A DNA stretch of 40,774 nucleotides from Desulfomonilia bacterium (GTDB lineage: Bacteria > Desulfobacterota > Desulfomonilia > UBA1062). Location of the stretch: positions 1 through 40,774 of the forward strand of contig DATCTV010000011.1 of the NCBI GenBank assembly GCA_036567785.1, read 5' to 3'. The position numbers and the translations under genes were made by a program. Shown one piece after another: positions 7,953 through 32,472 of the stretch. The notes beneath the pieces are model-generated. The model saw nothing but the letters and a program-made list of their open reading frames with translations, had not been told where the DNA came from and searched no databases. Positions within the stretch are counted from its first letter, which is position 1; each line of letters opens with the position of its first letter.

Positions 7953-8135
7953 ATGAAGAAAAAGATATGGCAAACGCCAGAGTTGTTGGTATTGACCCGC
8001 AATAATCCGGCAGAGTCTGTTTTAGCCGGGTGCAAAACAGAAGGCAGTCCTATTGATAGTAATCAAAGGGAGAATAACTGCTATGCTGGTATGGATCCCT
8101 GTGCAGATGGTTGTTGGTGGACACTTGAAAGTTAA
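7953..8135 (+). CDS. Candidate RiPP precursor peptide 1 (four-cysteine family)
   Basis: A 60-residue peptide behind a strong TGGGAGGAG ribosome site. The leader half has W6, PELLVLTR and ESVLAGCK; the core half is Gly/Asp/Asn-rich with Cys at 27, 43, 50 and 54 and ends WWTLES. Two further peptides at 18512-18932 share the leader pattern W-x2-P-(E/D)-L-x-V-L-x-R followed by E-x-V-L-x-G-C-K and a terminal C-x3-C. Downstream genes are three radical SAM/SPASM enzymes and a PqqD homologue, the usual partners of a modified peptide. Precursor status is inferred from conservation and context; the product is unknown. The longer frame beginning at 7818 lacks a ribosome site and is not used. Confidence 0.85.
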   Translation: MKKKIWQTPELLVLTRNNPAESVLAGCKTEGSPIDSNQRENNCYAGMDPCADGCWWTLES

Positions 8136-8337: not shown

Positions 8338-10347
8338 ATGCCTGTAACTATAAATACTTTGAGAATGCCAAGACTCCCGCTCGAATGCAGAATCGACCTT
8401 ACCTACCGCTGCAACAACTCATGTCTGCACTGCTGGCTCAGACTCCCTGCCGATGCGCCTGAAAAAGAAAACGAAATGTCCTTTGATGAGATTTCAAGCT
8501 TTGTCGGTGAAGCAAGAAAGATGGGCTGCCGCAAGTGGAGCATTTCAGGCGGTGAGCCAATGATCAGGCCTGATTTTAAAGATATTTTCGAGTTGATAAC
8601 CTCTAAATGTACCGGCTACACCCTTAACACAAACGGCACGCTTATAACGCCAAAGATTGCCAAAGCAATGGCTCGCAAAGGATCAAAGATGGTTGCCATT
8701 TATGGCGCAACGCCTGAGACCTATGAGAAGGTCACGGGCAACCCGCATGGATTCGAACAGGTTATGAGGGGCCTTTCATACCTGAAGGAAGCAGGTACCG
8801 GGTTCATTGTTCAGCTTATTCCAATGCGCGCAAACTGGCATGAATGGGAGAAAATGCAGGAACTGGCAAAACGCTTCAGCAAACACTGGCGCGTCGGGGC
8901 CCCCTGGCTTTACCTCTCGTCCAGCGGCTCGCCTGAAAGAAACCGCCAGATCGAGGCACAGAGGCTTGACCCTGCTGACGTCATCGAGCTCGACAAGCCC
9001 AATCCTTCGGATGATGAACGATTTCTTGAAATAATGAATACCGAAAAAGCAGAATCGTCATGCGGCTTTGTTTCCACCAATGACGACCGGTTGTTTGCAA
9101 GATGCATCGCATGCCGTCGCGATTTCCACATTGACCCGTATGGCGGGATTTCCTGGTGCAGCTTCATAAAAGACCCTGAGTTTCGTTACGACCTGAGGAA
9201 AGGCTCTGTCAAAGACGCCTGGGAAAACTTCATTCCCTCATGCACCGACAAGGTTCATGGTGGAGATGAATGGAGGAAGCACTGCGGCTCCTGCCCCATC
9301 CGCTCCGGCTGCCGCTGGTGTGCGGTCTATGCTTATCTTGAAACAGGCAGGTATTCGGCACCTTTACCTTATCTGTGCGAGGTCGCTAAAGAGGCGCAAA
9401 AGTTCAAGGCCGACTGGAAGAAAAACCACCGCAAATATTTTCAGATTGCAGGAATCACGGTACGGATGGAAAGCGACCTCGACCTGAGCAAAATCAGATT
9501 CAAGAATGAACTTGAAGCATTTGAAACAAGCGGCCCCGGTGAAGACAATGTATCGTTCAGGCACATATTCGAACTGCCTGACCTTGCAGGCAAAGATCTT
9601 GGGACAGAGCTCTACCGCAAGCCTCCCTGGGCTATTTCCAGAAAGAACGGGGCATGGTTTTACAAAGGCATTTCGCCTGAGCCAGATGACCCATCCATTC
9701 ACAGGGTCGCTGTATTCAACAATGACCATACGAGAGGAACCATATACAGCAGGCCAGACTATAAAACACGGATTATTAAGGACGGATGGTATTCTCTTTC
9801 GCTTTTTCCAACCGACCAGATATGGCTTGGCCCCCTGCTGCCTGACAGAAATGCAGTGTTGATTCATTCGGCAGCAGCAATTGTCAATGGCTCAGGCCTT
9901 GTTTTTGTCGGGCATTCGGATGCTGGCAAGTCTACGACAATGGAGATGCTGAAGGCTGCAAGCAGCCAGGGGAAACTAGACGCTGAAATCCTGTGCGATG
10001 ACCGGAATGTCATAAGAAAATGGCAGGAAGGCTGGAAGGTTCACGGCACATGGAGCCACGGCACGACAGCCGATGTCTCCCCGTCGTCGGCCCTGCTTAA
10101 GGCAATCCTGTTTTTGAAACAGGACACCAGGAATATCATCGAACCACTCGACGATAAAAAAGCTATCTGGAAAAAGCTTCTCGCAACACTCATCCGGCCA
10201 ATGGTAACCGCTGAATGGTGGCAGAAAGAGATGGATATACTTGAAGAGATCATTGCCCAGATTCCCTGTTACACCATGCATTTCGACAAATCAGGGGTAA
10301 TCGTAGACAAAATAGCAGAAATGACAACAGGTTCAATCGATGAGTGA
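8338..10347 (+). CDS. Radical SAM/SPASM enzyme fused to an HPr-kinase-like (ScmC-like) P-loop domain
   Basis: A 669-residue two-part protein. The first part has the radical SAM cluster motif CNNSCLHC (Cys25, 29, 32), the SAM-binding ISGGEP motif and an iron-sulfur SPASM region with CIACRRDFH, CGSCPIRSGCRWC and a final Cys in YLCEVAKEA, ending near residue 365. The C-terminal part, about 370-669, has Walker A GHSDAGKST (525-533) and an LCDDRN motif, as in HPr kinase-like proteins such as ScmC and lasso-peptide kinases. It begins the enzyme operon with a CGGAGAA ribosome site and overlaps the next gene by 8 nt. Likely role: modify the Cys-rich peptide core and possibly phosphorylate it. Domains are seen; the chemistry is inferred. 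The fusion is unusual. Confidence 0.88.
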   Translation: MPVTINTLRMPRLPLECRIDLTYRCNNSCLHCWLRLPADAPEKENEMSFDEISSFVGEARKMGCRKWSISGGEPMIRPDFKDIFELITSKCTGYTLNTNGTLITPKIAKAMARKGSKMVAIYGATPETYEKVTGNPHGFEQVMRGLSYLKEAGTGFIVQLIPMRANWHEWEKMQELAKRFSKHWRVGAPWLYLSSSGSPERNRQIEAQRLDPADVIELDKPNPSDDERFLEIMNTEKAESSCGFVSTNDDRLFARCIACRRDFHIDPYGGISWCSFIKDPEFRYDLRKGSVKDAWENFIPSCTDKVHGGDEWRKHCGSCPIRSGCRWCAVYAYLETGRYSAPLPYLCEVAKEAQKFKADWKKNHRKYFQIAGITVRMESDLDLSKIRFKNELEAFETSGPGEDNVSFRHIFELPDLAGKDLGTELYRKPPWAISRKNGAWFYKGISPEPDDPSIHRVAVFNNDHTRGTIYSRPDYKTRIIKDGWYSLSLFPTDQIWLGPLLPDRNAVLIHSAAAIVNGSGLVFVGHSDAGKSTTMEMLKAASSQGKLDAEILCDDRNVIRKWQEGWKVHGTWSHGTTADVSPSSALLKAILFLKQDTRNIIEPLDDKKAIWKKLLATLIRPMVTAEWWQKEMDILEEIIAQIPCYTMHFDKSGVIVDKIAEMTTGSIDE

Positions 10348-11485
10348 TTTTGTACGATATATAAAACTTACCGAGAAAAGGATTGTTACAAAACTTGGAA
10401 ACCTTGACATAGAGCTGACCGAGCGCTGCAATAATGACTGCATTCACTGCTGCATAAATCTGCCGGCCAATGACAGAATGGCTAAAGCCCGTGAGATGGG
10501 TATCGCTCATATAAAGGATTTGCTTGTTCAGGCTCAAAAGCTCGGCTGCATGCAGGTCAGGTTCACAGGTGGGGAACCTCTTCTGCGGCCTGACTTTGAA
10601 GATATTTACCTCTTTGCACGAAAGCTGGGCATGAAAGTACTGATTTTCACCAATGCAAGACTCATAACTGAAAAGCTGGCGGATCTGTTCAAACGCATCC
10701 CGCCTCTTGTAAAAATAGAAATCACTTCTTACGGCATGCATGAGGAATCCTACGAGTCGGTGGCCCGTGTTTCCGGGTCATTTAAACAGTTCTGGCGCGG
10801 TATTAATCTGCTGCTTGAACGTAACATCCCATTTATCGTCAAGTCCGCACTCCTGCCCCGGAACACACATGAAATTGATGAATTTGAATCATGGGCTTCA
10901 GCCATCCCCTGGATGGACAAAAACCCAAAATATTCCATGTTCTTCGATTTGAGAAACAGATGTGACAACGAAGAAAAAAACGCCATGATCAGGTCATTGC
11001 GCCTGTCACCTGAAGAAGGCATGAAAATCCTTACACGCGATGCTGATAAATACCGTAAAGACATCAACGAGTTCGCATCTAAATTCATGAGGCCTGCGGG
11101 CGACAAACTGTTCGGCTGCGGCGCAGGCTGCGGCATGTGCATTGATGCCTATGGAATGGCACAACCTTGCATGGGGGTGCGCAGTCCTGAATTGATATAT
11201 GACACTTCCCGGCATTCGCTTGAATCTGTGCTGGAAATATTCAAAAACTTAAAAGAAATGTGCGCAACGAACCCTGAGTATCTGAGGCGATGTGCCAGAT
11301 GTTTTTTGAAGGGGCTCTGCGAACAGTGCCCTGCAAAATCATGGGCCGAACACCAGACCCTTGACACGCCGGTGGAATACCTGTGCAATATAGCGCATGC
11401 CCAGGCCAGATGGATGGGCTGGCTGGATCAAACGGAATTCGGTTGGGAAGTGACTGACTGGAAAGAAAGAATTACCAGCAACTGA
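10340..11485 (+). CDS. Radical SAM/SPASM peptide maturase 2
   Basis: A 381-residue PqqE-like protein with CNNDCIHC (Cys30, 34, 37), the FTGGEPLLRPDF motif of the SAM site, a conserved CINLPAND tail after the cluster motif that the other two enzymes share as xxLPA, and a SPASM region with CGAGCGMC, CARC, CEQCP and YLCNIAHA. Its start overlaps the previous gene, implying translational coupling. It is probably one of the two SPASM maturases that act on the peptide in SynChlorMet-type cassettes (ScmE/ScmF). Which bond it forms (thioether, C-C or other) cannot be read from sequence. Confidence 0.9.
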   Translation: MSDFVRYIKLTEKRIVTKLGNLDIELTERCNNDCIHCCINLPANDRMAKAREMGIAHIKDLLVQAQKLGCMQVRFTGGEPLLRPDFEDIYLFARKLGMKVLIFTNARLITEKLADLFKRIPPLVKIEITSYGMHEESYESVARVSGSFKQFWRGINLLLERNIPFIVKSALLPRNTHEIDEFESWASAIPWMDKNPKYSMFFDLRNRCDNEEKNAMIRSLRLSPEEGMKILTRDADKYRKDINEFASKFMRPAGDKLFGCGAGCGMCIDAYGMAQPCMGVRSPELIYDTSRHSLESVLEIFKNLKEMCATNPEYLRRCARCFLKGLCEQCPAKSWAEHQTLDTPVEYLCNIAHAQARWMGWLDQTEFGWEVTDWKERITSN

Positions 11486-11510: not shown

Positions 11511-11816
11511 ATGGAGGTCAATCTGACAAAAGAAAGCATTTGCCTGCCGTCTGAAGACATAGTTGCCCGTGAAATAGAAGGCGACATCATAATCGTCCCT
11601 CTTGTCGCAGGCATCGGAGATGCTGATGATGAACTGTACACCCTTAATGAGACCGGCAAGGCCATATGGAAGAAACTGGACGGCGGAAAATCGCTTGGTA
11701 AGATTGCGACGGAACTTTCCGACGAGTTCGCATCCGAAGCCGGCGAGATAGAAAAGGATGTTATAGGCTTTGCATCAGAAATGGTCAGCCGCCGCATCCT
11801 TTCAATAAAAAACTGA
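11511..11816 (+). CDS. PqqD-family peptide chaperone (RiPP recognition element)
   Basis: A 101-residue protein with the PqqD winged-helix signature: ELYTLNETGKAIWKKLDGG, then KIATELSDEF and ASEMVSRRIL. PqqD proteins bind the leader of a precursor peptide and hand it to the radical SAM enzyme. It has a good CGGAGG ribosome site and lies between the second and third radical SAM genes, nine nucleotides before the latter. It probably recognises the shared W/PEL/VLVR leader of the three peptides; that is inference. It corresponds to ScmD in the SynChlorMet scheme. Confidence 0.92.
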   Translation: MEVNLTKESICLPSEDIVAREIEGDIIIVPLVAGIGDADDELYTLNETGKAIWKKLDGGKSLGKIATELSDEFASEAGEIEKDVIGFASEMVSRRILSIKN

Positions 11817-11825
11817 AACTCTAAA

Positions 11826-12935
11826 GTGCCTGGAAAACTCGAAATCCAGCAGTTCGGCCTCTGGGACAGGCTGAAGTTGAAACGTTCTCCGATATCGTTC
11901 GATATCGAAATAACCGCCAGATGCAATATGGACTGCCGCCATTGTTATATCAATCTTCCTGCAGGCGATAATGAGGCTCTCTTAAGGGAAATGAGCATCG
12001 ATGAAATCGCATATATTGCCGCTCAGGCCGTCGACATGGGTGCAGCCTGGTGTCTGATTACAGGCGGAGAGCCTCTTCTCCGGAAGGATTTTTCAGAAAT
12101 TTATATGATGCTGAAGAGAAAGGGCCTGCTTGTTTCGGTTTTCACGAACGCCACTCTGTTTAGCGATGAGCACATAAGGCTTTTCAAAAAATATCCGCCG
12201 CGCGATATTGAAACGACCGTTTACGGGGTGACAAAGGAAACCTTCGAGCGTGTAACCCGCCGCCCCGGTTCTTTTGAAAAATTCATTAACGGGCTAAATA
12301 TGCTTACCGATAACGGCATTAGGATACGGCTTAAGACAATGGCGATCAGATCAAACCTCCATGAACAGAATGAAATTGCAGAATTCTGCCGTGCACGGAC
12401 AAAGGACTTCTTCAGGTTTGACCCGCAGCTTCATTTGCGTTTTGACGGTAATGAAAAAAGAAATGATGAAATACGCTCCGAACGCCTGACACCTGAAGAG
12501 ATAATCGAACTGGAGACATCCGATAAGGAGCGGTTCGCTGCTTTGACAAAGAATTGCGGGACTCTGATCAACGAAGAATTCGCACATATGAACTGCAATC
12601 ATTTGTTCCACTGCGGGGCTGGAAAAGGCAGTTTTAATGTCAGTTATGATGGAAGATTCCGCTTATGCTCATCGTTGTGGGCCGAAGGAACGACTTGCGA
12701 CTTGAGGAAGAACAGACTGGAATACGCATGGAATGATCTCGTCCCAAGGGTCCGGGACATGCGTTCGGACAAAAAGTCCTTCCTCGAGACATGCCGGAAA
12801 TGCGCTATCGTCAATCTGTGTCTCTGGTGTCCTGCGCATGCGCACCTGGAAACAGGAGAACTTGACGGCGCAACCCCATATTTCTGCGAGGTCGCGCATA
12901 CACGCGCAGCAGCCATTAAAAAACCGATTGCATAA
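11826..12935 (+). CDS. Radical SAM/SPASM peptide maturase 3
   Basis: A 369-residue protein, GTG start, nine nucleotides after the PqqD gene. Cluster motif CNMDCRHC (Cys33, 37, 40), ITGGEPLLRKDF, and a SPASM region with HCGAGKGSF, LCSSLW, CRKCAIVNLCLWCPAH and YFCEVAHT. It shares the xxLPA segment after the cluster motif with the two upstream enzymes, and all three end their SPASM part with a Y-x-C-(E/N)-(V/I)-A element, so they are paralogues. It is expected to modify the same peptide family. No strong ribosome site is seen, which fits coupling to pqqD. Confidence 0.9.
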   Translation: MPGKLEIQQFGLWDRLKLKRSPISFDIEITARCNMDCRHCYINLPAGDNEALLREMSIDEIAYIAAQAVDMGAAWCLITGGEPLLRKDFSEIYMMLKRKGLLVSVFTNATLFSDEHIRLFKKYPPRDIETTVYGVTKETFERVTRRPGSFEKFINGLNMLTDNGIRIRLKTMAIRSNLHEQNEIAEFCRARTKDFFRFDPQLHLRFDGNEKRNDEIRSERLTPEEIIELETSDKERFAALTKNCGTLINEEFAHMNCNHLFHCGAGKGSFNVSYDGRFRLCSSLWAEGTTCDLRKNRLEYAWNDLVPRVRDMRSDKKSFLETCRKCAIVNLCLWCPAHAHLETGELDGATPYFCEVAHTRAAAIKKPIA

Positions 12936-13321: not shown

Positions 13322-13933
13322 ATGAAATTAAAGGGAATAATGTTATTTGTTACAGTATTAATGCTGGTCACAATAACAGGGACATCCTGGGCTCGTGTTC
13401 ATGATGAGCGCCTGCAAGCCCAGAAGATTGCGCTTGAAAAAACAGATGTCAGCTTAAGCCAGGTCATAGATTCGATTGAATCCTCTCATCATGTCAAGGT
13501 GATAAGGGCTGAAGTCGAACCTTACAGCCTGTCGGAGGGGCCCATGTGCTATGAGCTTTACGCCTCTGACGGCTCCAGTTCATGGATTGATTCGGTTTTC
13601 ACCTACACAAAGGCAAAGAAATTCTATGTGGATGTAAGGACTGGGAATTTGCTTGGTCAGGGGAAACCGTTCTGGAGATATTTCTATTTCAGTGCTGCCG
13701 GCAAGGCCAATGCCGTTAACCGGGTCAAGCTGTCCATGTCTCAGGCAATTCCGATTGCCGAGAGCGCCACCGGCGGAAAGACGGTACTGGTAAGGGTACA
13801 CAGGGATAGTGGAATTGTCTTCTATCAGATAACAATGATAGTTAACGATTCTCTCAAACGCGTGCTGGTGGATTCCTATAACGGAAAGGTCACTGAAGTG
13901 CCTGCAGACCGGCATGGTCATTTTAAAGACTAG
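13322..13933 (+). CDS. Secreted PepSY-domain protein
   Basis: A 203-residue protein with a cleavable signal peptide (GTSWARVHDE; cleavage near residue 25). Two PepSY-like segments are visible: one from ALEKTDVSLSQVIDSIE to FYVDVRTGNLLG, and one from VKLSMSQAIPIAES to VLVDSYNGKVTEV. PepSY domains occur in protease propeptides and in periplasmic sensory partners of two-component systems. As first gene of the unit with the kinase and regulator, and with a promoter the regulator may control, it could feed a periplasmic signal to the kinase. The start has an AAAGGAGAG ribosome site. Confidence 0.82.
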   Translation: MKLKGIMLFVTVLMLVTITGTSWARVHDERLQAQKIALEKTDVSLSQVIDSIESSHHVKVIRAEVEPYSLSEGPMCYELYASDGSSSWIDSVFTYTKAKKFYVDVRTGNLLGQGKPFWRYFYFSAAGKANAVNRVKLSMSQAIPIAESATGGKTVLVRVHRDSGIVFYQITMIVNDSLKRVLVDSYNGKVTEVPADRHGHFKD

Positions 13934-13967
13934 ACCGGTATCGATGCAGAGGTGTAAGAGGAATGCC

Positions 13968-14366
13968 ATGAAGTACTGCCGCCAATCCTTTCTGCGCCTC
14001 TGCATTCTGATTTTGCTCTGCAAGACCGTATTGGCAGGGTCTGCCCTGGCCGATGATCACATTACAGGAGAGATCCTGACTTTTGATTCCGAACAGCGCA
14101 TTATTATCGTGCAGCCCCACTATGAGCACAAGCATCGGGATAATGTAACCATTCACGTGCCTCGAATGCCGCAGGAGCTTGAAACCGGAATGCTGATTCA
14201 CGTACACGGAAGGTATCGTAAGGATGACCGTTCCCATTTTGATGCTACCCGGGTTAAAATAGAGAACAAGGACCTGACAGGTGTCCGGAAACGGCTGCAA
14301 AAAATAAAAAACTCTATCAAGAGCAGCCAGCCGGAAGACATAAATATGCCGGAGAGTTCCCCTTGA
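13968..14366 (+). CDS. Small secreted protein of the two-component operon
   Basis: A 132-residue protein starting MKYCRQSFLRLCILILLC behind AGAGGAA, with a signal peptide ending around SALAD. The mature part (DHITGEILTFDSEQRIIIVQ, then MPQELETGMLIHVHGRY and DATRVKIE) has the pattern of a small OB-fold or DUF5666-type beta barrel, followed by a lysine-rich helix. I do not recognise a named family. It is 34 nt after the PepSY gene and its stop overlaps the TTG of the kinase, so it is surely co-transcribed. A longer frame back to 13914 overlaps the PepSY gene and is unlikely. Confidence 0.72.
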   Translation: MKYCRQSFLRLCILILLCKTVLAGSALADDHITGEILTFDSEQRIIIVQPHYEHKHRDNVTIHVPRMPQELETGMLIHVHGRYRKDDRSHFDATRVKIENKDLTGVRKRLQKIKNSIKSSQPEDINMPESSP

Positions 14367-15955
14367 AGCCTTTGTTCAAACGCCTTGCCTCGGCTATCAT
14401 CAAGAAGTTTCCCATCGAACGGCTGATTCCGACCTGGAAAGGGAATTTTCTTGTTGTAGGGATCATCGTTGCCGTTGTCCTGGGCTATTCCCTCTGGCAG
14501 GTCAACCGTGCACAGCGTGTCTTCATCTCACAGGTAAAAATCGACGCCCAGATCATCATTGAAGCCATCAAGCTCAATGCAAACAACGCGATCATATCAG
14601 AGACCGTCATCGACGAGGTTGTGCAGTCATTCCTTGACAATTCGGCCCGCTTCATAGATTTCCTCGATTCCATTGAACCTTTTTCAGTCTCCGAACTATC
14701 GGCATTCTGCCGCCAGTCCAACCTTGAATGGGCCGTCATTTATCGCCCGAACGGATTTATGACAAGGGGCCAGGGCCAGGATGTAACAGACGGCAATAAT
14801 CAGCCGAAGATTCAGTCAAAAACATACACATTCAAACGTCAGAGGCTTCCCGGAACAATTACCGTCGGATTCTCTTCCCCTCACATCGATACCCTGAAGC
14901 GCCAGGTGGACCTTCAGCAGACCCTTGAACGGCTCCAGAAACTGCCAGGCATCGCATATATCCGGATTGAAAACACCCCGTTTCAAGACTCCGGTCACAA
15001 GTCCGGCGTCATTCTCCATGATAATAATCGAATCGCTGAAACACGCCTGAGCTTTAACCGCGACAAAACTCTTGTGGTCGGTATTTCTGCAGCCCCTTAT
15101 TACAATGAACGCGATCGTCTGTGGACACAGTTCTTTTTCTTCGCCATCCTTGCAGGCTGCATCGGCGCGCTGGTCTCATGGCTTCTATATTATTATCAGA
15201 CCGCCACTCTCAATCAGGCGCTGAGTTTCGAACGCAGACTGGCCCGGCAGCAGGAGGATGCCGCACTGGGACAGGCTTCGGCAACAATAACACATGAATT
15301 GCGCAACCCACTGAGCGCCATCAGCATGGGACTGCAGCGTTTGGATATCGAGGCCGGAGAATTGACAAGTGAACACAAGGACCTTGTCAATACCATGCTC
15401 AGGGCCCTGCAGCGGACCAACGGGATCATCAGCAACCTGAGCCGCTACACCAGTTCCTTCAAACTACAGTTTCAGCAGGTCGATATAAAGTCAGCCATCA
15501 GCAGGCTCCTCACACTCTACGATGGTATGATAAGCTCCCAGGGCATCGAGGTAACGTTCAATTCCTGCACCGATGCCACTATACCCGGCGATCAGCACCT
15601 TCTGGAGGAGATGCTTGAGAACCTGATTAAAAATGCCATCGAGGCACAGCAGCATGGCGGGTACATCAATATTGATGTGACCCGCCGCGGTGAAATGCTG
15701 GCCATCGAGTTGAAGAATCAGGGCCTTGAAGCAGTCAATGAAAATATCGACCGGATTTTTGAAGCCTACTTTACCACCAAGGCAACCGGTTCCGGACTGG
15801 GGCTTGCTATTGCCAAGCGGATTATAGAAGCCCATGGCGGGAGCATTGACGGCCACAGTCCTCACAAAGGTGAGTTGCATCTTCAAATCTTGCTGCCTTT
15901 GAGCCATGTTCGTGAAGGACATGATGCAGGAAGCACAGGTATCCATGATGAATGA
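14363..15955 (+). CDS. Membrane sensor histidine kinase
   Basis: A 530-residue kinase with TTG start overlapping the previous stop (TTGA) behind CCGGAGAG. Two membrane helices (about 29-46 and 258-278) flank a 210-residue periplasmic sensor region. The H-box is ITHELRNPLSAI with phospho-acceptor His311; the N-box is ENLIKNAIEA; F- and G2-boxes are IFEAYFTTK and GSGLGLAIAKRI. The G1 box, normally D-x-G-x-G, reads LKNQGLEAV, so its ATP-lid aspartate appears to be missing. Activity may be weak or the site rearranged. It is coupled to the downstream sigma-54 activator, its likely phosphorylation partner. Confidence 0.9.
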   Translation: MKPLFKRLASAIIKKFPIERLIPTWKGNFLVVGIIVAVVLGYSLWQVNRAQRVFISQVKIDAQIIIEAIKLNANNAIISETVIDEVVQSFLDNSARFIDFLDSIEPFSVSELSAFCRQSNLEWAVIYRPNGFMTRGQGQDVTDGNNQPKIQSKTYTFKRQRLPGTITVGFSSPHIDTLKRQVDLQQTLERLQKLPGIAYIRIENTPFQDSGHKSGVILHDNNRIAETRLSFNRDKTLVVGISAAPYYNERDRLWTQFFFFAILAGCIGALVSWLLYYYQTATLNQALSFERRLARQQEDAALGQASATITHELRNPLSAISMGLQRLDIEAGELTSEHKDLVNTMLRALQRTNGIISNLSRYTSSFKLQFQQVDIKSAISRLLTLYDGMISSQGIEVTFNSCTDATIPGDQHLLEEMLENLIKNAIEAQQHGGYINIDVTRRGEMLAIELKNQGLEAVNENIDRIFEAYFTTKATGSGLGLAIAKRIIEAHGGSIDGHSPHKGELHLQILLPLSHVREGHDAGSTGIHDE

Positions 15956-16008
15956 CAATGTCTTTGGTCCACGGTAAAATAGATAAAAATATAAAGAACA
16001 GGAACGGT

Positions 16009-17343
16009 ATGCGCATACTGATAGTCGATGATGAAGAAATGCAGCGCGGACTTCTGGAGGGTTTTCTCTCCAGGCAGGGATATGATGTTATAACGGCCGC
16101 CAACGGGCATGAAGCACTTGCGCGATTTCAGGAGCTGCCCATTCAGCTTGTGCTGCTCGATCACCGCATGCCGGACATTAACGGCGACGAGGTTTTAAGG
16201 CGGATGAAAGCCATCAACCCGATCTTTGCATGCATCATGATCACTGCTTTCGGAACGGTACAGACAGCCGTGGAGGTTATGAAGCTCGGGGCCGTTGATT
16301 TTCTGGAGAAACCGGTCGACCTCAAGGCGCTGCTGGAAAAAGTCCGGCTGACGGAAAATCAGATGAACATCATGGCAGACGCCGAATACGTGAACAGCAC
16401 GATTAAGCAATCCGATCTGCCTTTCCCTGTCGTGGCCGGAGCTCCCGCCATGCAGGAGGTGTTGTCTCTGGCACAACGCGTTGCAGCAACACCATGGCCG
16501 ATACTCATCTATGGCGAGACAGGAACCGGCAAGGAAGTCATCACCCGTCTGATTCACATGATGAGCCCGCGACGTGACGCGCCTCTGGTGGAAGTCAACT
16601 GTGCGGCTGTACCAGAAAATCTCTTCGAATCAGAACTTTTCGGCCATGAAAAGGGGGCCTTTACCGGCGCTACAGCCAGCAGGCAGGGGCGTTTTGAACA
16701 GGCCCACGGCGGTACGCTCTTTCTTGATGAAATAAGTGAACTTTCGCTCAACCTGCAGGCCAAACTCCTGCGTGTACTCCAGGAGAACAAGATTAACCGC
16801 GTCGGCGGATCGCGCACCATACCGGTCGATGTGCGCGTCCTTGCTGCGACCAACAGGGACCTCACGGCAATGATAGCAGAAGGGACTTTCCGTGATGACC
16901 TCTTTTACAGAATCAATGTGCTGACCATACCCCTGCCCCCCTTGAGGGAACGCAAACAGGATATCCCAGCCCTGGCAAAACTTTTTATCGAACTCTACAG
17001 CCCGCAGCCTCTCGAATTCGATAACGATGCCATGAATATGCTCATGAAATATGACTTCCCGGGCAATGTCCGGGAGCTTGAGCATATCATCAAGCGCCTG
17101 GCTGTACTGAGCCGTTCCTCTGTCATACGAACATCCGACCTGCCCGAAGAGGTGCGCATTCCTAAAGCACAGGGTTCCGGTTTCCTGAACAGCCGTTTGT
17201 CCTCAGTAGAGAGCGACCTGATCCTGCAGGCCCTCGAACGCCATGACTGGGTGCAGACTCGCGCGGCAGAAGCTCTGGGCATCAGCGAGCGGGTGCTTCG
17301 CTATAAGATTGAAAAGCTCGGGATAAAGAAACGATCCCGCTGA
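16009..17343 (+). CDS. NtrC-family sigma-54-dependent response regulator
   Basis: Receiver domain (MRILIVDDEE; acceptor Asp in LLDHRMPD, residue 51 from this start), AAA+ domain with Walker A GETGTGKE, the sigma-54 contact loop GAFTGA, Walker B GGTLFLDEI, the arginine-containing FRDDLFYRINV and a C-terminal Fis-type helix-turn-helix (TRAAEALGISERVLRYKI). It is expected to open sigma-54 promoters when phosphorylated. ATG 16009 has AGGAAC upstream and begins at the natural receiver N-terminus; ATG 15952, overlapping the kinase stop, is the alternative and would add 19 residues. The palindromic sites and sigma-54-like promoter before the first gene of this operon make autoregulation likely. Confidence 0.93.
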   Translation: MRILIVDDEEMQRGLLEGFLSRQGYDVITAANGHEALARFQELPIQLVLLDHRMPDINGDEVLRRMKAINPIFACIMITAFGTVQTAVEVMKLGAVDFLEKPVDLKALLEKVRLTENQMNIMADAEYVNSTIKQSDLPFPVVAGAPAMQEVLSLAQRVAATPWPILIYGETGTGKEVITRLIHMMSPRRDAPLVEVNCAAVPENLFESELFGHEKGAFTGATASRQGRFEQAHGGTLFLDEISELSLNLQAKLLRVLQENKINRVGGSRTIPVDVRVLAATNRDLTAMIAEGTFRDDLFYRINVLTIPLPPLRERKQDIPALAKLFIELYSPQPLEFDNDAMNMLMKYDFPGNVRELEHIIKRLAVLSRSSVIRTSDLPEEVRIPKAQGSGFLNSRLSSVESDLILQALERHDWVQTRAAEALGISERVLRYKIEKLGIKKRSR

Positions 17344-17425: not shown

Positions 17426-18457
17426 TCATATCAAATCTTTTTTCATGACTATCCTTCTGAGCCCGGTATGCCGCTGTTCAGAAGAAAACAAAGGTTCAAG
17501 AGCTTTGACCTCGGTACGCACAAAACCAAGCTTGCCGTAAAGATTTATGGCACGTCTGTTATCCTCATAGACAACAAGGTAGAGCTCTTTTGCACCCATC
17601 TCGACAGCCTTTTCAATACCTCGCTTAACCAGCTTTTCGCCAATACCTGTTCCACGGTATAAACTCCATACGTTAAGAGAAAAAAGCCAGAACCCCACCC
17701 ATGGAAAATGCTCTTCGGGATGATACACAAACTGTATGAATCCAATCACTTTACCTGATCGCCTGGCTATCCAGTTTGTTACATCAGGATTATAAGGCTG
17801 CCTGCGATATAGATCATATGGATTCAGGCGGTTGTGTACGGCTTCCATATCGCTTTCACTGGCCTCTTCGATGACGATTTGATGCGACAGCCTCCTTCCA
17901 AATCTTCGATAGAACGGAAAACCCTGCAGAAAAATCAGAACACGACCTGCGGCGCGTCGCGGCAGAAAATAGAGACGCTTAAGCCGTAAGAGAAAATCGT
18001 CTCTGTTCAATATGGATATCAGGATACCGGAGAAACCAAGGCCGAGACGAACATTCCGGCCATAACGTTCTATTTTCGTCACATATCCGAGTATATTTTC
18101 CGGCATGATTGTCCCGTCCGTCTGAGAACAGTTGTCTCCGCGGATCAGAAAACCGGAACGGGCTCTGGAAATAACTCGATGGACTGCAAGTCTTCCCGTT
18201 TCAGGCTTCACAAAAGCGACCACATCCCCGGGTGAAAGTTTCCTGCCGTTTACAGGAGAAATTGTAAGCACATCTCCGTCCCTTATAAACGGGTACATGC
18301 TGAACCCGCGCACCATCGTACGCAAAGAAACCCCTCGTTCCATCATTCCTGTAAGCAGTTCGAGCTGGCCCGTATTGGATAAATGAAGTTCTTCGCCTGT
18401 AGATACATAATCCGAAGATAGGCTTTGCTGGCTGGACTGAAGCGTATGAGTCTTCAT
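17426..18457 (-). CDS. S26 signal-peptidase-like domain fused to a GNAT acetyltransferase
   Basis: A 343-residue fusion. Residues 40-130 are S24/S26-peptidase-like: RGFSMYPFIRDGDVL with catalytic Ser53, SPGDVVAFV, and LAVHRVISRARSGFLIRGDN. The residue at the general-base position is His93 rather than Lys, the Ser-His arrangement of Sec11/SipW-type enzymes. Residues from about 194 form a GNAT domain with the acetyl-CoA site SLYRGTGIGEKLVKRG and NRRAINLYGKLGF. It follows two precursor-peptide genes in the same direction, so leader removal and N-acetylation of the product are attractive roles, both inferred. No ribosome site is evident at this ATG; a later start is possible. Confidence 0.88.
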   Translation of the reverse strand: MKTHTLQSSQQSLSSDYVSTGEELHLSNTGQLELLTGMMERGVSLRTMVRGFSMYPFIRDGDVLTISPVNGRKLSPGDVVAFVKPETGRLAVHRVISRARSGFLIRGDNCSQTDGTIMPENILGYVTKIERYGRNVRLGLGFSGILISILNRDDFLLRLKRLYFLPRRAAGRVLIFLQGFPFYRRFGRRLSHQIVIEEASESDMEAVHNRLNPYDLYRRQPYNPDVTNWIARRSGKVIGFIQFVYHPEEHFPWVGFWLFSLNVWSLYRGTGIGEKLVKRGIEKAVEMGAKELYLVVYEDNRRAINLYGKLGFVRTEVKALEPLFSSEQRHTGLRRIVMKKDLI

Positions 18458-18511: not shown

Positions 18512-18718
18512 TCAAGATAACTGGAGGGCATTGCATATATTCGGACAGGGATTGTATCCTCCAAAGGCGTAACATCCTCCCCAATAGTCATTGGCCGACA
18601 CGGTATAAATCGGTCCGTTTTTACATCCGGTCAAAACCGCCTCCTCAGGCATGTTCCGTACAAGTACGACCAAATCCGGCCTTATCCAAGCCTTTTTATT
18701 TCCTTCTTTTTCACCCAT
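18512..18718 (-). CDS. Candidate RiPP precursor peptide 3
   Basis: A 68-residue peptide with CCGGAGG upstream. The leader has W11, RPDLVVLVR, PEEAVLTGCK; the core is rich in Gly, Asn, Tyr with Cys at 32, 49, 58 and 62, the last two as C-x3-C. Compared with the other two peptides it has five extra N-terminal residues and a slightly longer core (Cys49 to Cys58 with eight residues between, instead of six). It lies between precursor 2 and the S26-GNAT gene in what looks like one minus-strand operon. Confidence 0.85.
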   Translation of the reverse strand: MGEKEGNKKAWIRPDLVVLVRNMPEEAVLTGCKNGPIYTVSANDYWGGCYAFGGYNPCPNICNALQLS

Positions 18719-18749
18719 TTTCCATTACCTCCGGATAATATTTATCTTT

Positions 18750-18932
18750 TCAGCTTTGAACAGGATCACTGCACAGAGTAGTGCATCCGGGTGCATCTGA
18801 ATGGCAGCCGTCCTTGTGCGACAAAAAGCTCGTTATCGATCCTCCGCCTTTGCACCCGTTCAAAACAGCCTCTTCAACCTGATGTCTAACCAGGACAATC
18901 AGCTCAGGTTTTTTCCATTGCGCTTTCTTCAT
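18750..18932 (-). CDS. Candidate RiPP precursor peptide 2
   Basis: A 60-residue peptide with GCGAGG upstream. Leader W6, KKPELIVLVR, EEAVLNGCK; core with Cys27, 43, 50 and 54, exactly the cysteine positions of precursor 1 although the core residues between differ almost completely. That pattern, constant leader and cysteines with variable loops, is typical of RiPP precursors diversifying under one set of enzymes. It is divergently oriented from the ABC exporter; only 63 bp separate the two, so their promoters must overlap. A weak TTGTAT/TTTATA pair can be drawn for this gene. Confidence 0.86.
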   Translation of the reverse strand: MKKAQWKKPELIVLVRHQVEEAVLNGCKGGGSITSFLSHKDGCHSDAPGCTTLCSDPVQS

Positions 18933-18995: not shown

Positions 18996-20906
18996 ATGGC
19001 AATACAGCGAAACAATCATGGTCATAAAAACAGGTTGTATCAAATTGATTGTAATGAGATAGTTTTCTTTGTGGATGAAAATATATTTAAAAATCCGAAA
19101 GAGATCTGGGACAATATAAGTTTACTGACAAGGAATCTTTTAAAGGCAATCGGCCTTGTCTGGGACATTGCCCGGAAATGGACAATATTGTGGGCATGCC
19201 TTCTTGTCGTTCAGGGCATTCTTCCGGTTGCAACCGTGTATCTTACAAAGGCATTCATAAACAGCCTGACCATAACCGTTTCAGGGGGAGGAACAGGCGT
19301 CTCGAAAACAATATCCCTGGCCCTTATGTTTATTATTATTTATCTTGCAAACAGTATAGCCGGATTTGCCCAGAAGCTGGTAAAGATAAAGCAGTCTGAA
19401 ATCATACAGGACTCCATGACAAACAGGATCCATGAAAAGGCCCTCGAAATGGACATGGCCTTTTTCGAATCCCCTGAATCTTTCGACAAGCTCTACAGGG
19501 CGCAGATCGATGCCAAGAACATGCCGCAGACACTGCTGGACAATCTGGGCATGCTGGCTCAAAGCTGCATTACCCTTTTTGCAATGGCGGGTATTCTTTT
19601 TTCCTTCGGAGTCCTGCTGCCAGTCCTTCTGTTTCTGGGCACAATTCCGGCACTGTTCATAATGGGATACTACTCCAGAAAGATGAACAACTGGAGAATA
19701 AAGAGAACACCCGAATCCAGGATGGCCAGTTACTATGATCATATGATCACCCATAGGAACTCCGCACAGGAAATAAGGCTTTACGGCCTGGGTAACAGTT
19801 TCCGGAAAAGCTATCAGGACTTGAGGGCCGTATTGAGGAACGAAAAAATCTCCCTTACGAAAGAACAGGCCATAGCCGAATTCGCTGCGCAGATCTTCGG
19901 TATGGCAGTGATCGGGGTTGCTGTTGTATGGATACTTTTAAGGGCCGCACACGGTAAAGCAAACCTGGGAGAAGTCGCAATGCTCTATCAGGCTTTCAAC
20001 CAGGGACAGAATCTTATGCGCAACGTCCTGGGCAATGTAGGTACCATATACAGGAACAGCATGTTCGTTGATGACCTCTTCCTGTTCTTCAGTATTGAAC
20101 CCAAGGTTAAGAACCCTGATAATCCAGTGGATGCCCCGCCATCACTGGGAGACGGCATCATATTCGATAAGGTAACCTTCAGATATCCCTGCGGCGCCGA
20201 TGATGTAATAAAGGATTTCAGCCTGAAAATACCCGCAGGCCTGACAACCGCCATCGTGGGACCGAATGGTGCGGGCAAGAGCACACTCACCAGGCTCATA
20301 TGCAGGTTCTATGACCCTGAAAGAGGCAGGATACTCCTGGACGGCGTCGATGTGAGGGACATCGACCTGAAAAGGCACCGGGGCAGGATAAGCATGCTCT
20401 TTCAGGAGCCGGTCCATTTCAATGCAAGCGCTTTCGACAACATAGCATATGGAAGCATCGAGTCATCACCGGGCATCGACGATGTGAAGAAGGCGGCCGC
20501 TTCGTCCGGTGCTGATGCACCCATTTCCAGACTTCCCAAAGGCTATGAAACCGTCCTTGGCAAGTGGTTCGGGGGTTCTGACCTGAGTATGGGCGAATGG
20601 CAGAGGGTTGCCCTGGCAAGGGCATTTTTGAGAAAGTCGACCATACTGTTGCTCGACGAGCCTACAAGCTCGATGGATTCATGGGCCGAGAATGACTGGA
20701 TCAGAAAATTCAAAGGTCTTGCCATTGGCAAGACCTCACTCATAATAACGCACAGATTCACCACGGCCATGCAGGCGGATATAATTCATGTGATGGATAA
20801 GGGCGTCATCATTGAATCCGGAACTCATGAGGAACTGATCAGAAAAGGCGGCATGTATGCCAGGTCATGGAATGAGCAGACAAAAGAATACGACCATACC
20901 ATCTGA
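18996..20906 (+). CDS. ABC transporter, fused permease and ATPase (peptide exporter candidate)
   Basis: A 636-residue half-transporter: a 60-residue N-terminal extension, a six-helix ABC exporter membrane domain, and a nucleotide-binding domain with Walker A GPNGAGKST (422-430), signature LSMGEWQRVALARAF (LSGGQ variant) and Walker B TILLLDEPTSSMD. There is no C39 peptidase domain, so leader cleavage must be done by another protein, plausibly the S26-GNAT fusion. The position between the precursor genes and the nucleotidyltransferase supports export of the mature product. The N-terminal start is uncertain; ACAAGG sits very close to this ATG. Confidence 0.9.
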   Translation: MAIQRNNHGHKNRLYQIDCNEIVFFVDENIFKNPKEIWDNISLLTRNLLKAIGLVWDIARKWTILWACLLVVQGILPVATVYLTKAFINSLTITVSGGGTGVSKTISLALMFIIIYLANSIAGFAQKLVKIKQSEIIQDSMTNRIHEKALEMDMAFFESPESFDKLYRAQIDAKNMPQTLLDNLGMLAQSCITLFAMAGILFSFGVLLPVLLFLGTIPALFIMGYYSRKMNNWRIKRTPESRMASYYDHMITHRNSAQEIRLYGLGNSFRKSYQDLRAVLRNEKISLTKEQAIAEFAAQIFGMAVIGVAVVWILLRAAHGKANLGEVAMLYQAFNQGQNLMRNVLGNVGTIYRNSMFVDDLFLFFSIEPKVKNPDNPVDAPPSLGDGIIFDKVTFRYPCGADDVIKDFSLKIPAGLTTAIVGPNGAGKSTLTRLICRFYDPERGRILLDGVDVRDIDLKRHRGRISMLFQEPVHFNASAFDNIAYGSIESSPGIDDVKKAAASSGADAPISRLPKGYETVLGKWFGGSDLSMGEWQRVALARAFLRKSTILLLDEPTSSMDSWAENDWIRKFKGLAIGKTSLIITHRFTTAMQADIIHVMDKGVIIESGTHEELIRKGGMYARSWNEQTKEYDHTI

Positions 20907-22119
20907 CGCGCTGAAAGAGCGTTATGGCAATGACGGCAATCTGCTGAAGATTTATCTTGATATCTGCAGATGCCTTTCGGGCAGATGTGAAGAAGCGGAC
21001 TGGAAAGAATATTCAGATGCGGATTGGCAGTTGTTTGAAAGGCTCGTACTGGAAGAAGGTGTCGCAGCACTGATAAACAGCAAAAAATCAGATCTGAAGC
21101 CGTTGATTGACCGGATACCACTTGAGTCATGGCTAAAATTCAGCACCATGAGAGTCCGCATCAGATATACAAATGAGATGCGCTACAAAGAGCTTTCCGG
21201 GAACGTGTTCCCCGCTGTACTGCCTCAATTCCAGCCTGTAATAATGCTCAAGGGAAGCGCACTTGCACTTGCGCTCTATGAAGACATCTCTCTCAGGGAC
21301 ATGTGCGATACCGATCTGCTTGTCAGACAAGAGTTCCTGGATCAGGCCTCTGATATGCTGAAAGAAGCCGGATACCGCATTTTCATTGAATCCATAACCC
21401 ATCTGAGACCTGTTTCCTCAACTCTTATCGAAGACAAGCACCTGAGCCTGAAAAAACAGGGGGCAAAAGGCCAGCTCATAGAGCTTCACTGGAGACTCGT
21501 CAACCTGTATCACAAGAAAGATTTCGACCTCGACAGCTGGTTCTTTGAACATATTATGCCGATAGAGGATGACGGGACATTCAAAAACGTCTCTGGACTT
21601 TATATGCTTTCACATACAGCCGCTCTTGCTCACCAGGTGCTTCATATATACTTCTGCCACAATATTGCCGCTTCAAGCCTGTTCCACTTTTATGAAACAT
21701 ATTTCATGGCTCAGAAATGGAGGGACCTTATCGACTGGGATGAGTTGTCGTATATCTTTGATAAACTGGGTCTTGGAGAAATCCTCCTTCTTGCATCAGA
21801 CATGTCCGAAGAACTTTTCGGCGCTGCCCTGCCATTAAGAGTTCCGGCCGGTTCAGATTCGAACACATTCATACTGAAACTCAGGTCTCAGCCCATGAAG
21901 ACATCAGCCGCAAAAACCCTTTACATAATCAAGGAGCTTCCCTTCAGAGAAAAACTCAAGTTTGTCCTTGAAGCAGTATTCCCGCCCCCTGAATATATGA
22001 AAAAACGCTATATAAACAAAAAACGGGTAAGTCTTCCTTTTCTTTACCTTCGAAGGTTTTCAGACGGCCTTAAAGATTTTCCAAAATTTGTCAGGGCCCT
22101 GCGGGCGAAACGGTCATAA
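20857..22119 (+). CDS. Nucleotidyltransferase-family protein (PF14907-like)
   Basis: A 420-residue protein whose central segment IMLKGSALALALYEDISLRD followed by DTDLLV and LKEAGY matches the uncharacterised nucleotidyltransferase family PF14907 (K-G, then R-x2-x-D-x-D-L-L-V). Such proteins are frequent in lasso-peptide and other RiPP loci, with unknown substrates. The gene overlaps the ABC gene by 50 nt from ATG 20857 (AAAAGGCGG upstream); ATG 20872 is an alternative. It is the last gene of the locus, before a carAB promoter. Transfer of a nucleotide to the peptide, or to a partner, is speculation. Confidence 0.85.
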   Translation: MPGHGMSRQKNTTIPSDALKERYGNDGNLLKIYLDICRCLSGRCEEADWKEYSDADWQLFERLVLEEGVAALINSKKSDLKPLIDRIPLESWLKFSTMRVRIRYTNEMRYKELSGNVFPAVLPQFQPVIMLKGSALALALYEDISLRDMCDTDLLVRQEFLDQASDMLKEAGYRIFIESITHLRPVSSTLIEDKHLSLKKQGAKGQLIELHWRLVNLYHKKDFDLDSWFFEHIMPIEDDGTFKNVSGLYMLSHTAALAHQVLHIYFCHNIAASSLFHFYETYFMAQKWRDLIDWDELSYIFDKLGLGEILLLASDMSEELFGAALPLRVPAGSDSNTFILKLRSQPMKTSAAKTLYIIKELPFREKLKFVLEAVFPPPEYMKKRYINKKRVSLPFLYLRRFSDGLKDFPKFVRALRAKRS

Positions 22120-27150: not shown

Positions 27151-28233
27151 TCAAGGACCGGTGTAGTCCTTGTTGTTTTTGATGTATACGGTCCCCCCGA
27201 TGCCTCCCCTTGAAAGTACCTGGTCCTGGAGCTGTACCGCCAGGGAGGTGCAAAGCAACGGGTTGTCGGTTATTTCAAAATCTCCATCAACTTTCTGCAG
27301 GTCTGTCATTCCCAAGGCTGTCAAGGCTGCATTGCTCCAAATTCTCAAGTTCCCGCTGACTGAGGCTATGCCCTGCAGGCCGGACAGACTTGATAAGGCG
27401 GCATTGTCTTGAATATTCAGATCCCTGCCGACCGATGTTAAACCATCAAGGCCGGAAAGATCCGTCAATGAGTTATCACCCAGGATTTCCAGGTCCCTGC
27501 CGATCGACTTGATGTTCTGAAGGCCGGAAAGGCTTTTTAAGGCTTCATTATTCTCGATATAAAGGTCTCCGCCGATCGATGTGATATTACGCAGACCGGA
27601 CAGGCTGGTCATGAGGGTTTTTTTATAGCCTCCGTTAATACAAAGGGACCTGCCTATCGATGTCAGACTGTCAAGGCCTTCGAGGCTTTTGACTTTGCCG
27701 CGAACAACCAGCGAGCCGGCAATGGCTGTATAATCTTTCAGCAACTCGACATCCCGACTTTCCTCGATGTAATAGTTGCCCTGCCAGACGGGTGCCGTGT
27801 TCTGCAGCACCCTGATGTCCCAGGATGTTGAATTTATCAATACCCAACTCCAATATGGTTCGCAGTTTCCCTGGGGACAAAAAACAGGAACGATATACTT
27901 GTACGACCAGTAATCACAGGTTATCCTGATCCTGTTCGTCTTCTCGCCTTCCGGATCGGCTGTGAACTCAAATATGTTCTCGCCGGAAAGCACGCTTACT
28001 TCATTGACATATTCAAGCTCGCTGTAGGATTCACTGTCCATTCTCCCGACCGACCACACGCATTTGGTCATGGAAGAATTTACGGGCCCTTTCACCTCGA
28101 ACAGCTTTGTCTCGCCAGGCCTCATCTCAATGATCGCAAGCGGATTCGGCGATGAAGAAATTATGCACCCCGACAAGCTGGCAGCAATGACCATTCCAGC
28201 CAGCAGGTAGATTAGAAACATCCGGCTTTTCAT
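27151..28233 (-). CDS. Leucine-rich-repeat lipoprotein A (paralogous family)
   Basis: A 360-residue protein starting MKSRMFLIYLLAG behind GAGGAGGAG, lipobox LSGC. Three regions: an N-terminal beta domain (IIEMRPGETKLFEVKGP, then KCVWSVGR), a linker ending TAPVWQGNYYIEESRDVELL, and about five 24-residue leucine-rich repeats of the type SLSGLQNIKSIGRDLEI. It closes with a conserved cap (EITDNPLLC, then VLSRGGIGGTVYIKNNKD). The repeats resemble receptor-L-domain solenoids. Surface adhesion or ligand binding is a guess. Three paralogues lie downstream on the same strand; repeat number varies among them. Confidence 0.8.
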   Translation of the reverse strand: MKSRMFLIYLLAGMVIAASLSGCIISSSPNPLAIIEMRPGETKLFEVKGPVNSSMTKCVWSVGRMDSESYSELEYVNEVSVLSGENIFEFTADPEGEKTNRIRITCDYWSYKYIVPVFCPQGNCEPYWSWVLINSTSWDIRVLQNTAPVWQGNYYIEESRDVELLKDYTAIAGSLVVRGKVKSLEGLDSLTSIGRSLCINGGYKKTLMTSLSGLRNITSIGGDLYIENNEALKSLSGLQNIKSIGRDLEILGDNSLTDLSGLDGLTSVGRDLNIQDNAALSSLSGLQGIASVSGNLRIWSNAALTALGMTDLQKVDGDFEITDNPLLCTSLAVQLQDQVLSRGGIGGTVYIKNNKDYTGP

Positions 28234-28299
28234 TATCTCCTCCTCTTTCATCAGATTTCTATTTTTTCAGTTTCAGGTCTTTTCTAGCGCGCTTCCGCC

Positions 28300-29259
28300 T
28301 CACGGCGCCGTGCAGTCTTTGTTGTCATTAATCGCTACGCTGTAGCCGATGCCATCTCTTGCAGCCACCTGTTCCCTCAGACCTTTGGCCAGAGAGACAT
28401 CGAGCCGAGGATTGTAGTTTATCCAAAGGCTCCCGCCGACCCTCTTCAGCTTTGTCATTCCCAGCCCGGCCAGTGATACGTTGTCGTACACATTCAGGTC
28501 GCCATCAATTGAGGTAATGTTCCCTATCCCTCTCAGGCTCTCAAGGGCGCTGTTGCCGCTTATGTAAGCGCTCCCGCCAATAGACGTCAATCCGCTCAGG
28601 CCGGCCATGCTTGAGAGGGCCGGGTTCTGCCAGACATCGAGGTTCCCTCCCAGCGAGGTCAGGCCTTCAAGGCCTTCGAATTCCTTGAGGTTCTTGTTGT
28701 AAAGGACTCCGAGGTCGCCGCCGACCGAGACTAGATTTTCCAGCCCCTTCAGGCTTTCAATGTTGACGCCTATCTTAAGCGAGCCCGTTACCTCGGTGTA
28801 TCCGTTCATGAGCTGGACGTCGATGGAGTCATCCAGATAGCAGTTTCCCCGCCATACTGGGGCAGATTCGTGGAGTACCCTTATCTTCCAGGAGCGAACA
28901 TCTATCAGGACCCATTCCCAGTGGTATGGGACATCGGAGCTGTTGAAGCGGTATTCGTAAAGGCCGCACGTGATGACCAGCCTGTTGCTCTGCTCGCTCT
29001 CAGGACTGAGTTTGAAGACGAACTGGTCCTTGCCTTCCGAGACCATTTCATTGCATCCGCCCATTCAGTTGATCGACCATACGCATTTCGAGTTGACAGT
29101 GTTGATCCTCATGCCGTCGACCTTGAAGAGCACCTGCCTTCCGTGACATACCTCCATGATCTTCTTTGTGCTCGGAAATGCCGAGACAAGTCGGCCTTCA
29201 AGGCCGTCCGTCCTCACTACCCCGAATCCATCATTGAAAATCAGTCTCTCCTTTTGCAT
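28300..29259 (-). pseudogene. Decayed LRR lipoprotein B
   Basis: The two halves are in one frame, separated by an in-frame TGA at 29065-29067. The upper half (from ATG 29259) aligns residue for residue with lipoprotein C: an 18-residue N-terminus, then GLEGRLVSAFPS where C has GLAGCIVSASPD. The lipobox Cys is thus Arg, and the hydrophobic core of the signal peptide is broken by Asn, Asp, Arg and Thr. The lower half keeps four repeats and the C-terminal cap (AVAINDNKDCTAP-like). Lost signal and a premature stop together indicate a pseudogene; reinitiation at the ATG after the TGA could still make a 254-residue cytoplasmic fragment. Confidence 0.75.
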
Positions 29260-29322
29260 CGCATCCCCCTGTTTCATCTTTTCTCCAACTTGCTTTCCCT
29301 GCCTAGTTGCATTTTCCTTTCC

Positions 29323-30729: not shown

Positions 30730-30814
30730 CAGGGCCAGGGCTTTGCACTCACCACACCGCGCCCTGAAGCTGTGCATCTTCACATCCATGGCCGCATCAT
30801 GCCGCATACCGACC

Positions 30815-30862
30815 TCAGTTCATCTTCCCGTCAGGGCCTACCTTGAGTCTTACATTCCTCAT
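30815..30862 (-). other. Fifteen-codon frame with strong ribosome site
   Basis: AAAGGAGGCATTC precedes ATG 30862, which opens MRNVRLKVGPDGKMN and a TGA at 30815. It ends 8 bases before the longest frame of the serine hydrolase, which has no ribosome site of its own. It could be a leader whose translation couples to the hydrolase, or the remnant of a damaged start region. I see no way to choose from sequence alone. Confidence 0.35.
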
Positions 30863-31219
30863 GAATGCCTCCTTTTCTATCCCATTTCATCTGTTTCCCG
30901 ATCACCGGAAAAGCCGACATCTCAAAACTGCAAAAGCAATCGGGCTCAATCTCTTCCCATTGAGACCATAATGGATGCCAGGTCAGCCGGTGTCAATCCG
31001 TACAGCCCATAAAAACCGATGATCGGCATTTTTTCTTTCTGCCGCGGTTCGCACATTGCGAACATTCTCACATTAAGGACATATCCAGCATTATCATGGA
31101 ATATCATCCAATAATCTCCAGGGCACACCCCCTGCAATGTACAGATTGAAACCTCCATTGTCTAAGCAGGCATTTCTCTCTCATATAATTATGCAAATCA
31201 TATATCTGCTGGGTGTCAG
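30863..31219. other. Gene-poor 357-bp region with a palindrome
   Basis: No convincing gene. A 70-codon minus-strand frame (30946-31158) has no clear ribosome site, no recognisable domain and is probably chance or relic. The one notable element is the palindrome at 31047-31063, repeated in similar form at 36050-36066. Confidence 0.5.
31047..31063. promoter_or_regulatory. Palindromic operator-like site, copy 1
   Basis: GTTCGCACATTGCGAAC: arms GTTCGCA/TGCGAAC around three bases. A second site of the same architecture lies at 36050-36066. The form resembles operators of Xre-type repressors, but no such regulator is in the window, so the binding protein is unknown. Confidence 0.4.
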
Positions 31220-32392: not shown

Positions 32393-32424
32393 TCATTCCT
32401 CCTTTTATAAATCCATCTTCAAAT

Positions 32425-32454
32425 CCGGCTCTGGGGGCTTGGCCCCGGAGCCGG
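32425..32454 (-). terminator. Terminator of LRR lipoprotein D gene
   Basis: CCGGCTCTGGGG (32425-32436) and CCCCGGAGCCGG (32443-32454) form a 12-bp GC-rich stem with one G-U pair and a 6-nt loop, 18 nt past the stop codon at 32473. On the minus strand it is followed by ATTTGAAG, a short T-tract. Confidence 0.65.
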
Positions 32455-32472
32455 TGCTAAGGTTATATAGAC

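Follow-up and report, generated by a model that had tools for sequence, protein, structure and literature searches.

Precursor peptides with a C-terminal serine and a radical SAM-kinase fusion in a putative RiPP system of a Desulfomonilia bacterium

The 40,774-nucleotide stretch of Desulfomonilia DNA analysed here (the window) is an entire contig of a 3.96-Mb draft genome that is 97% complete. It encodes three short cysteine-containing peptides in the company of several radical SAM genes, and it raises the question of what these peptides are and what the neighbouring enzymes might do to them. We think it probable that the locus encodes a RiPP system whose several precursors share one maturation set, their core cysteines being radical-modified, their C-terminal Ser or Thr phosphorylated and the product cut and exported; this reading draws on sequences, a predicted structure and covariation, from which we infer the chemistry. 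Two features that were absent from an earlier note on this DNA explain most of the observations: the C-terminal Ser/Thr of the precursors together with the kinase domain, and a number of core cysteines that tracks the presence of the first radical enzyme, rSAM1. The features of the locus are collected in Table 1.

Table 1. Features of the window and the two further precursors encoded elsewhere in the genome
Feature	Position	Strand	Details
Precursor A	7953-8135	+	60 aa; Cys 27/43/50/54; 3 core Cys; C-terminal Ser
rSAM1-kinase fusion	8338-10347	+	669 aa; radical SAM (PF04055) and C-terminal HprK-type kinase
rSAM2	10340-11485	+	381 aa; radical SAM/SPASM-type; PF04055
PqqD-family discrete leader-binding protein (RRE), predicted	11511-11816	+	101 aa; PF05402 E 3e-14, above cut-off
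rSAM3	11826-12935	+	369 aa; radical SAM/SPASM; PF04055 E 6.5e-25
Sensor histidine kinase	14363-15955	+	named from sequence
NtrC-type response regulator	15952-17343	+	named from sequence
Archaeal/SipW-type signal-peptidase-like domain fused to GNAT acetyltransferase	17426-18457	-	S53, H93, D108
Precursor C	18512-18718	-	68 aa; Cys 32/49/58/62; 3 core Cys; C-terminal Ser
Precursor B	18750-18932	-	60 aa; Cys 27/43/50/54; 3 core Cys; C-terminal Ser
MsbA-like ABC exporter without peptidase domain	18996-20906	+	PF00005/PF00664
PF14907 nucleotidyltransferase-like protein	20857-22119	+	PF14907 E 8e-32
Precursor D	contig C55		61 aa; Cys 32/47/52/55
Precursor E	contig C6		57 aa; Cys 28/43/51; two core Cys

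The precursor family

Peptides A, B and C are members of one precursor family. Their translations confirm what the earlier note had described, namely that A and B agree in length and in the position of all four cysteines and that C has them in like order but shifted. The leader motifs that it had singled out are present in all three peptides and exceed chance: in a whole-genome search, B as single query found A at E 6e-7 and C at E 2e-7. The family profile matched A, B and C at E 2e-30, 1e-29 and 5e-30, respectively; built from A to E, it found exactly these five members in the whole genome and no others at E<=10. The leader of precursor A reads WQTPELLVLTRNNPAESVLAGCK, and its gene is preceded by GGGAGGAG as ribosome-binding site. 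Precursors D and E adjoin genes such as lon and a crotonase-like gene, and no modification genes were seen near them on their two contigs. With these two additional copies, a single enzyme set would appear to have five products in this genome; the idea of a single set for several products was sound, but their number is not the three first proposed. The constancy claimed for the cysteine frame did not hold up, since E and other homologues have two core cysteines only. Comparison of the precursors with the named models in NCBIfam and Pfam gave no match above cut-off, and no papers on this family were found in the literature searched, most subscription journals being outside its reach.

The leader is far better conserved than the core. 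In its 23-residue block W1, P4, E16 and C22 never vary, while L6, L19 and K23 exceed 94%, giving the consensus WxxPxL...EEAVLxxCK; a leader column carries 2.5 bits of information on average, as against 0.55 for the first 12 core columns. Paralogues from the same genome make the point directly: leader identity is higher than core identity in 70/70 pairs (which are not all independent), with means of 0.61 and 0.23, and the latter is close to the 0.20 obtained with shuffled cores. The proposal of a constant leader and a variable core is thus borne out. The GCK motif named earlier survives in the wider family as Cys (100%) and Lys (96%), but the Gly before the Cys is variable, and the Cys-Lys may sit on either side of the cleavage point. 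A lipobox, which the VL-x-G-C arrangement might bring to mind, was considered and rejected: the precursors lack a hydrophobic signal region (the Kyte-Doolittle mean over 19 residues peaks at 0.61) and the residues before the Cys vary. Discrete RREs bind leaders through the motif [Y/W]xxPx[L/V/I/F/A] (PMC13381572), and the WxxPxL of this family fits it. The window holds what is expected of a RiPP locus: precursors whose leader is conserved and whose core varies, encoded together with modifying enzymes and an RRE.

The fused kinase and the C-terminal residue

The first radical SAM protein of the locus has a CxxxCxxC motif and a seven-Cys SPASM-type pattern, and is fused to a kinase domain at approximately residues 366-669 (about 300 residues); no description of a radical SAM-kinase fusion was found in the literature searched. 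The motif H510-G525-K531-S532/T-D554-D555 is intact in 71/79 fused kinases, and the spacing of its G, K and S (H+15, H+21 and H+22) is that of the lasso kinase BsfK (PMC10368454). Among 72 kinase domains, 68 match ScmC (best E 1.3e-13), 65 match HprK-related kinase B and 40 match HPr(Ser) kinase. By sequence, the kinase profile found only weak matches among solved structures, and so the fold was tested by structure. The model has a mean pLDDT of 95.8 and matches HprK/P with a Z of about 11 (rmsd 3.0 over 123 residues) and PEPCK with a Z of 13, so that the predicted fold and the catalytic motif together place the domain in the HprK/PEPCK superfamily. The fused kinase is decayed in two loci (L100 and L104) that contain a second, intact and separate kinase. 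In two others (L063 and L083) the sole kinase found has lost the motif, no second one was found in the locus, and the precursors still end in Ser.

The last residue of the precursor is Ser in 86 and Thr in 6 of 94 dereplicated sequences (92/94), while 15% of control ORFs end in either. This excess is not circular, because it persists when the count is repeated on matches to a leader-only profile: Ser or Thr is the last residue in 100/102 precursors from rSAM1 clusters and in 9/9 from those whose kinase is separate. The same is true of 15/16 precursors in a third group with one radical enzyme; the full profile that collected them was run at a loose threshold, though they occupy the slot adjoining the radical SAM gene. 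The last cysteine lies six residues from the end in 69/94 dereplicated precursors.

In lasso precursors the C-terminal Ser is the residue that PadeK and ThcoK phosphorylate, and PsmN puts hexoses on the phosphorylated Ser (PMC9266682); BsfK and LppK phosphorylate Ser3 of the core (PMC10368454, PMC13381572). The kinases of SynChlorMet-type cassettes keep the motif, yet the last residue of the precursors there is H, K, P or G. An HprK-type kinase does not, on its own, imply a C-terminal target, given these precursor ends and the Ser3 action of BsfK and LppK. The locus could thus be a RiPP cluster whose kinase modifies another Ser/Thr, or works as an ATPase or regulator, with the C-terminal Ser kept for docking or some other modification, and further Ser and Thr are indeed available in the cores (10% and 7% of residues). 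We regard this alternative as unlikely. Ser/Thr elsewhere in the core is not fixed, and no core position besides the Cys at -7 approaches the conservation of the last residue; the replacement of Ser by Thr in 6/94 is as expected of a hydroxyl target; and the kinase alone among the universal enzymes has chemistry for a Ser/Thr hydroxyl. Phosphorylation of the C-terminal Ser by the fused kinase is therefore the likely outcome, and it is likely rather than proven because of the SynChlorMet-type kinases.

Radical enzymes, core cysteines and the proposed maturation

Three radical SAM enzymes are encoded in the window, rSAM3 scoring 21.2 bits for SPASM against a cut-off of 21.5; GeoRSP and mycofactocin identities were rejected, as they gave weak superfamily matches only. 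The number of core cysteines covaries with one of these enzymes. In clusters with rSAM1, 87/102 precursors have at least three core cysteines. In three lineages (G088/G180/G229, G323 and G360, the last being 76% complete) rSAM1 is absent and the kinase is separate, and here 9/9 precursors have two core cysteines and 0/9 have at least three; in the clade with one radical enzyme the figure is 1/16. A FastTree phylogeny of the kinases puts the lineages without rSAM1 in three places among the fused kinases, and puts the one-radical-enzyme clade outside them as a monophyletic group (support 0.999). Because the last cysteine stays put near the end, the extra cysteine is the middle one, and the correlation, which rests on few independent events, suggests that rSAM1 acts there. 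Two-cysteine precursors also occur beside rSAM1 (14/102, including E), so rSAM1 may be necessary but not sufficient for the third cysteine.

These observations can be assembled into a maturation pathway. By analogy with the recognition elements of lasso and LPP systems, the PqqD-type protein would bind the leader through W-x2-P-x-L. The three radical SAM/SPASM enzymes would modify the core, most likely by forming cross-links at Cys, and covariation suggests that the radical domain fused to the kinase would be needed for the extra (third) core cysteine. The HprK-type kinase would phosphorylate the C-terminal Ser/Thr, as its fold, its conserved motif and the invariant residue of its proposed substrate indicate. 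On the precedent of LPP and pseudomycoidin, the SipW-like peptidase would cut off the leader, the MsbA-like exporter would secrete the product and the PF14907 protein, where present, would decorate the phosphate. Precursors encoded elsewhere in the genome would be processed by the same maturation set.

The SipW-like domain reaches 51.9 bits with TIGR02228 (cut-off 51.85), its Ser is found in 59 and its His and Asp in all 66 of 66 homologues, and no transmembrane-like stretch was seen in the protein; judged by its sequence it is the probable leader peptidase, and LppS provides an example of an SpI-type leader peptidase that depends on an RRE (PMC13381572). The ABC protein is the probable exporter, and further tailoring of the phosphorylated residue is a possible function of the PF14907 protein. 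The histidine kinase and the NtrC-type regulator are possible regulators of the cluster, a pair that is not constant across related loci. Control through sigma-54 was considered and set aside, matches to TGGCAC-N5-TTGC in the window being below shuffled expectation, with no enrichment; no common upstream site was seen and no Rfam elements were found. PepSY-like secreted proteins of 203 aa and 150 aa (13322-14366) adjoin the regulatory pair inside the cluster.

Known relatives and distribution

Each of the closest known systems, SynChlorMet, LPP and the paeninodin type, fails in a defining feature. The SynChlorMet (Scm) cassette (TIGR04248-TIGR04251), on which no papers were found in the literature searched, likewise combines PqqD, an HprK-type kinase, radical SAM/SPASM enzymes and a SipW-like peptidase, and its hosts overlap (Syntrophaceae, Chlorobi, methanogens). 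The window might be a plain member of this family as modelled in NCBIfam: most kinase domains do match ScmC, the PqqD protein matches ScmD, and rSAM2 and rSAM3 match ScmF weakly. We consider this very improbable, as the proteins of the window are far below the cut-offs (in bits, ScmC 21.5/125, ScmD 25.6/100, ScmE 60/400, ScmF 77-83/400), the SynChlorMet precursors seen have YxxP leaders and Cys/Gly-rich repeats with no C-terminal Ser, and, unlike the window system, SynChlorMet has no rSAM-kinase fusion. Moreover, in the tree the one-radical-enzyme clade separates the two kinds of kinase, and the same genome has a separate SynChlorMet-type cassette (contig C4, 6616-11328) with a different precursor, of 79 aa and ending in His, and an ScmC that exceeds the cut-off and is fused to a SipW-like peptidase. 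Other phyla have a compact sister cluster (L153-L157, L160-L170) that encodes PqqD, one radical SAM enzyme, a separate HprK-type kinase, a SipW-like peptidase and a precursor of 53-94 aa with a YxxP-type leader.

LPP, described in 2026, resembles the window in its SpI-type peptidase, discrete RRE, HprK-like kinase, PF14907-like NTP transferase and MsbA-like exporter, and in a precursor with conserved leader and variable C-terminus (PMC13381572). It differs in its leader, YxxPxVLxHQxIxFETxxS rather than WxxPxL, in having no radical SAM enzymes where the window has three, in its phosphosite, Ser3, in contrast to the Cys core and C-terminal Ser/Thr found here, and in being described as restricted to Bacillota. 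Lasso peptides of the paeninodin/pseudomycoidin type (PadeK, ThcoK, PsmK, PsmN; PMC9266682) share the discrete RRE, NTP transferase, ABC exporter, an HprK-like kinase with a His-Lys-Asp-Asp motif and, in the paeninodins, the WxxP leader, and the conserved C-terminal Ser with a dedicated HprK-like kinase is common to both. Neither a lasso cyclase nor a B2 protease was seen among the gene products of the window, which has radical SAM enzymes and Cys-rich cores in their place. Sactipeptides and ranthipeptides likewise have an RRE and SPASM radical SAM enzymes that act on Cys-rich cores; the window differs in having several dedicated radical SAM enzymes and an obligatory kinase, and its putative cross-links are suggested by Cys content, a SPASM-type Cys pattern and the covariation in Cys number.

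With the fusion protein as query, 79 loci were found; these, together with further relatives, contain 107 precursor homologues in 68 loci. The hosts include Desulfobacterota-type bacteria, Chlorobi, Chloroflexi, Acidobacteria, Aminicenantes, Omnitrophota, WOR-1, WOR-3 and Actinobacteria, and, among the archaea, Methanomicrobiales and Methanothrix. Of the loci, 32 have 5 kb of sequence on either side; every one of them contains rSAM2, PqqD, the peptidase and rSAM3 (32/32), while a precursor was detected in 28, an ABC gene in 24 and PF14907 in 16. When 395 genomes of the phylum were scanned, precursor and kinase domain were confined to the same nine, a tenth match (G310) falling in the radical SAM domain only; this supports the association with modification enzymes that had been proposed. 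Homologues occurring broadly away from modification genes had been named as evidence against it. Orphan copies on other contigs do occur, in other genomes as in this one, yet in genomes that also carry the enzymes, apart from a single draft (82% complete) whose peptide is near-identical to one from an enzyme-bearing relative. It is hardly credible that the radical SAM genes are chance neighbours and that the peptides, having nothing to do with modification, are small proteins with a regulatory or metal-binding role, for although two of the five copies (D and E) adjoin unrelated genes, the joint restriction to nine genomes, the constancy of the gene set in well-flanked loci from many phyla and the match of the leader motif to RRE-bound leaders all speak against it.

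Whether the RiPP system set out above represents a widespread, laterally spread class of bacteria and methanogenic archaea, marked by radical cross-links, a phosphorylated and perhaps capped C-terminal Ser, a bifunctional fusion, scattered precursors and a core-cysteine number set by the number of radical enzymes, is in our judgement evenly balanced. If it does, one enzyme set would bring together the cross-linking of radical SAM peptides and the C-terminal phosphorylation of lasso/LPP peptides, the lineages that have naturally lost a radical enzyme along with a cysteine would offer a genetic handle on the assignment of enzymes to sites, and the precursors encoded in trans would be a natural case of a tolerant maturation set handling many cores. 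One isolate is among the carriers, the cultured Desulfofustis glycolicus DSM 9705, and it makes the system testable.

Two neighbourhoods merit separate mention. In a Desulfomonile-type genome an orphan precursor (locus L027, 8684-8887) has a set of ABC-transporter genes on either side, which might provide another route of export. In the window itself, the minus strand at 27151-33753 encodes four lipoprotein-like paralogues that contain repeated units of the GLENITSVGGDL type.
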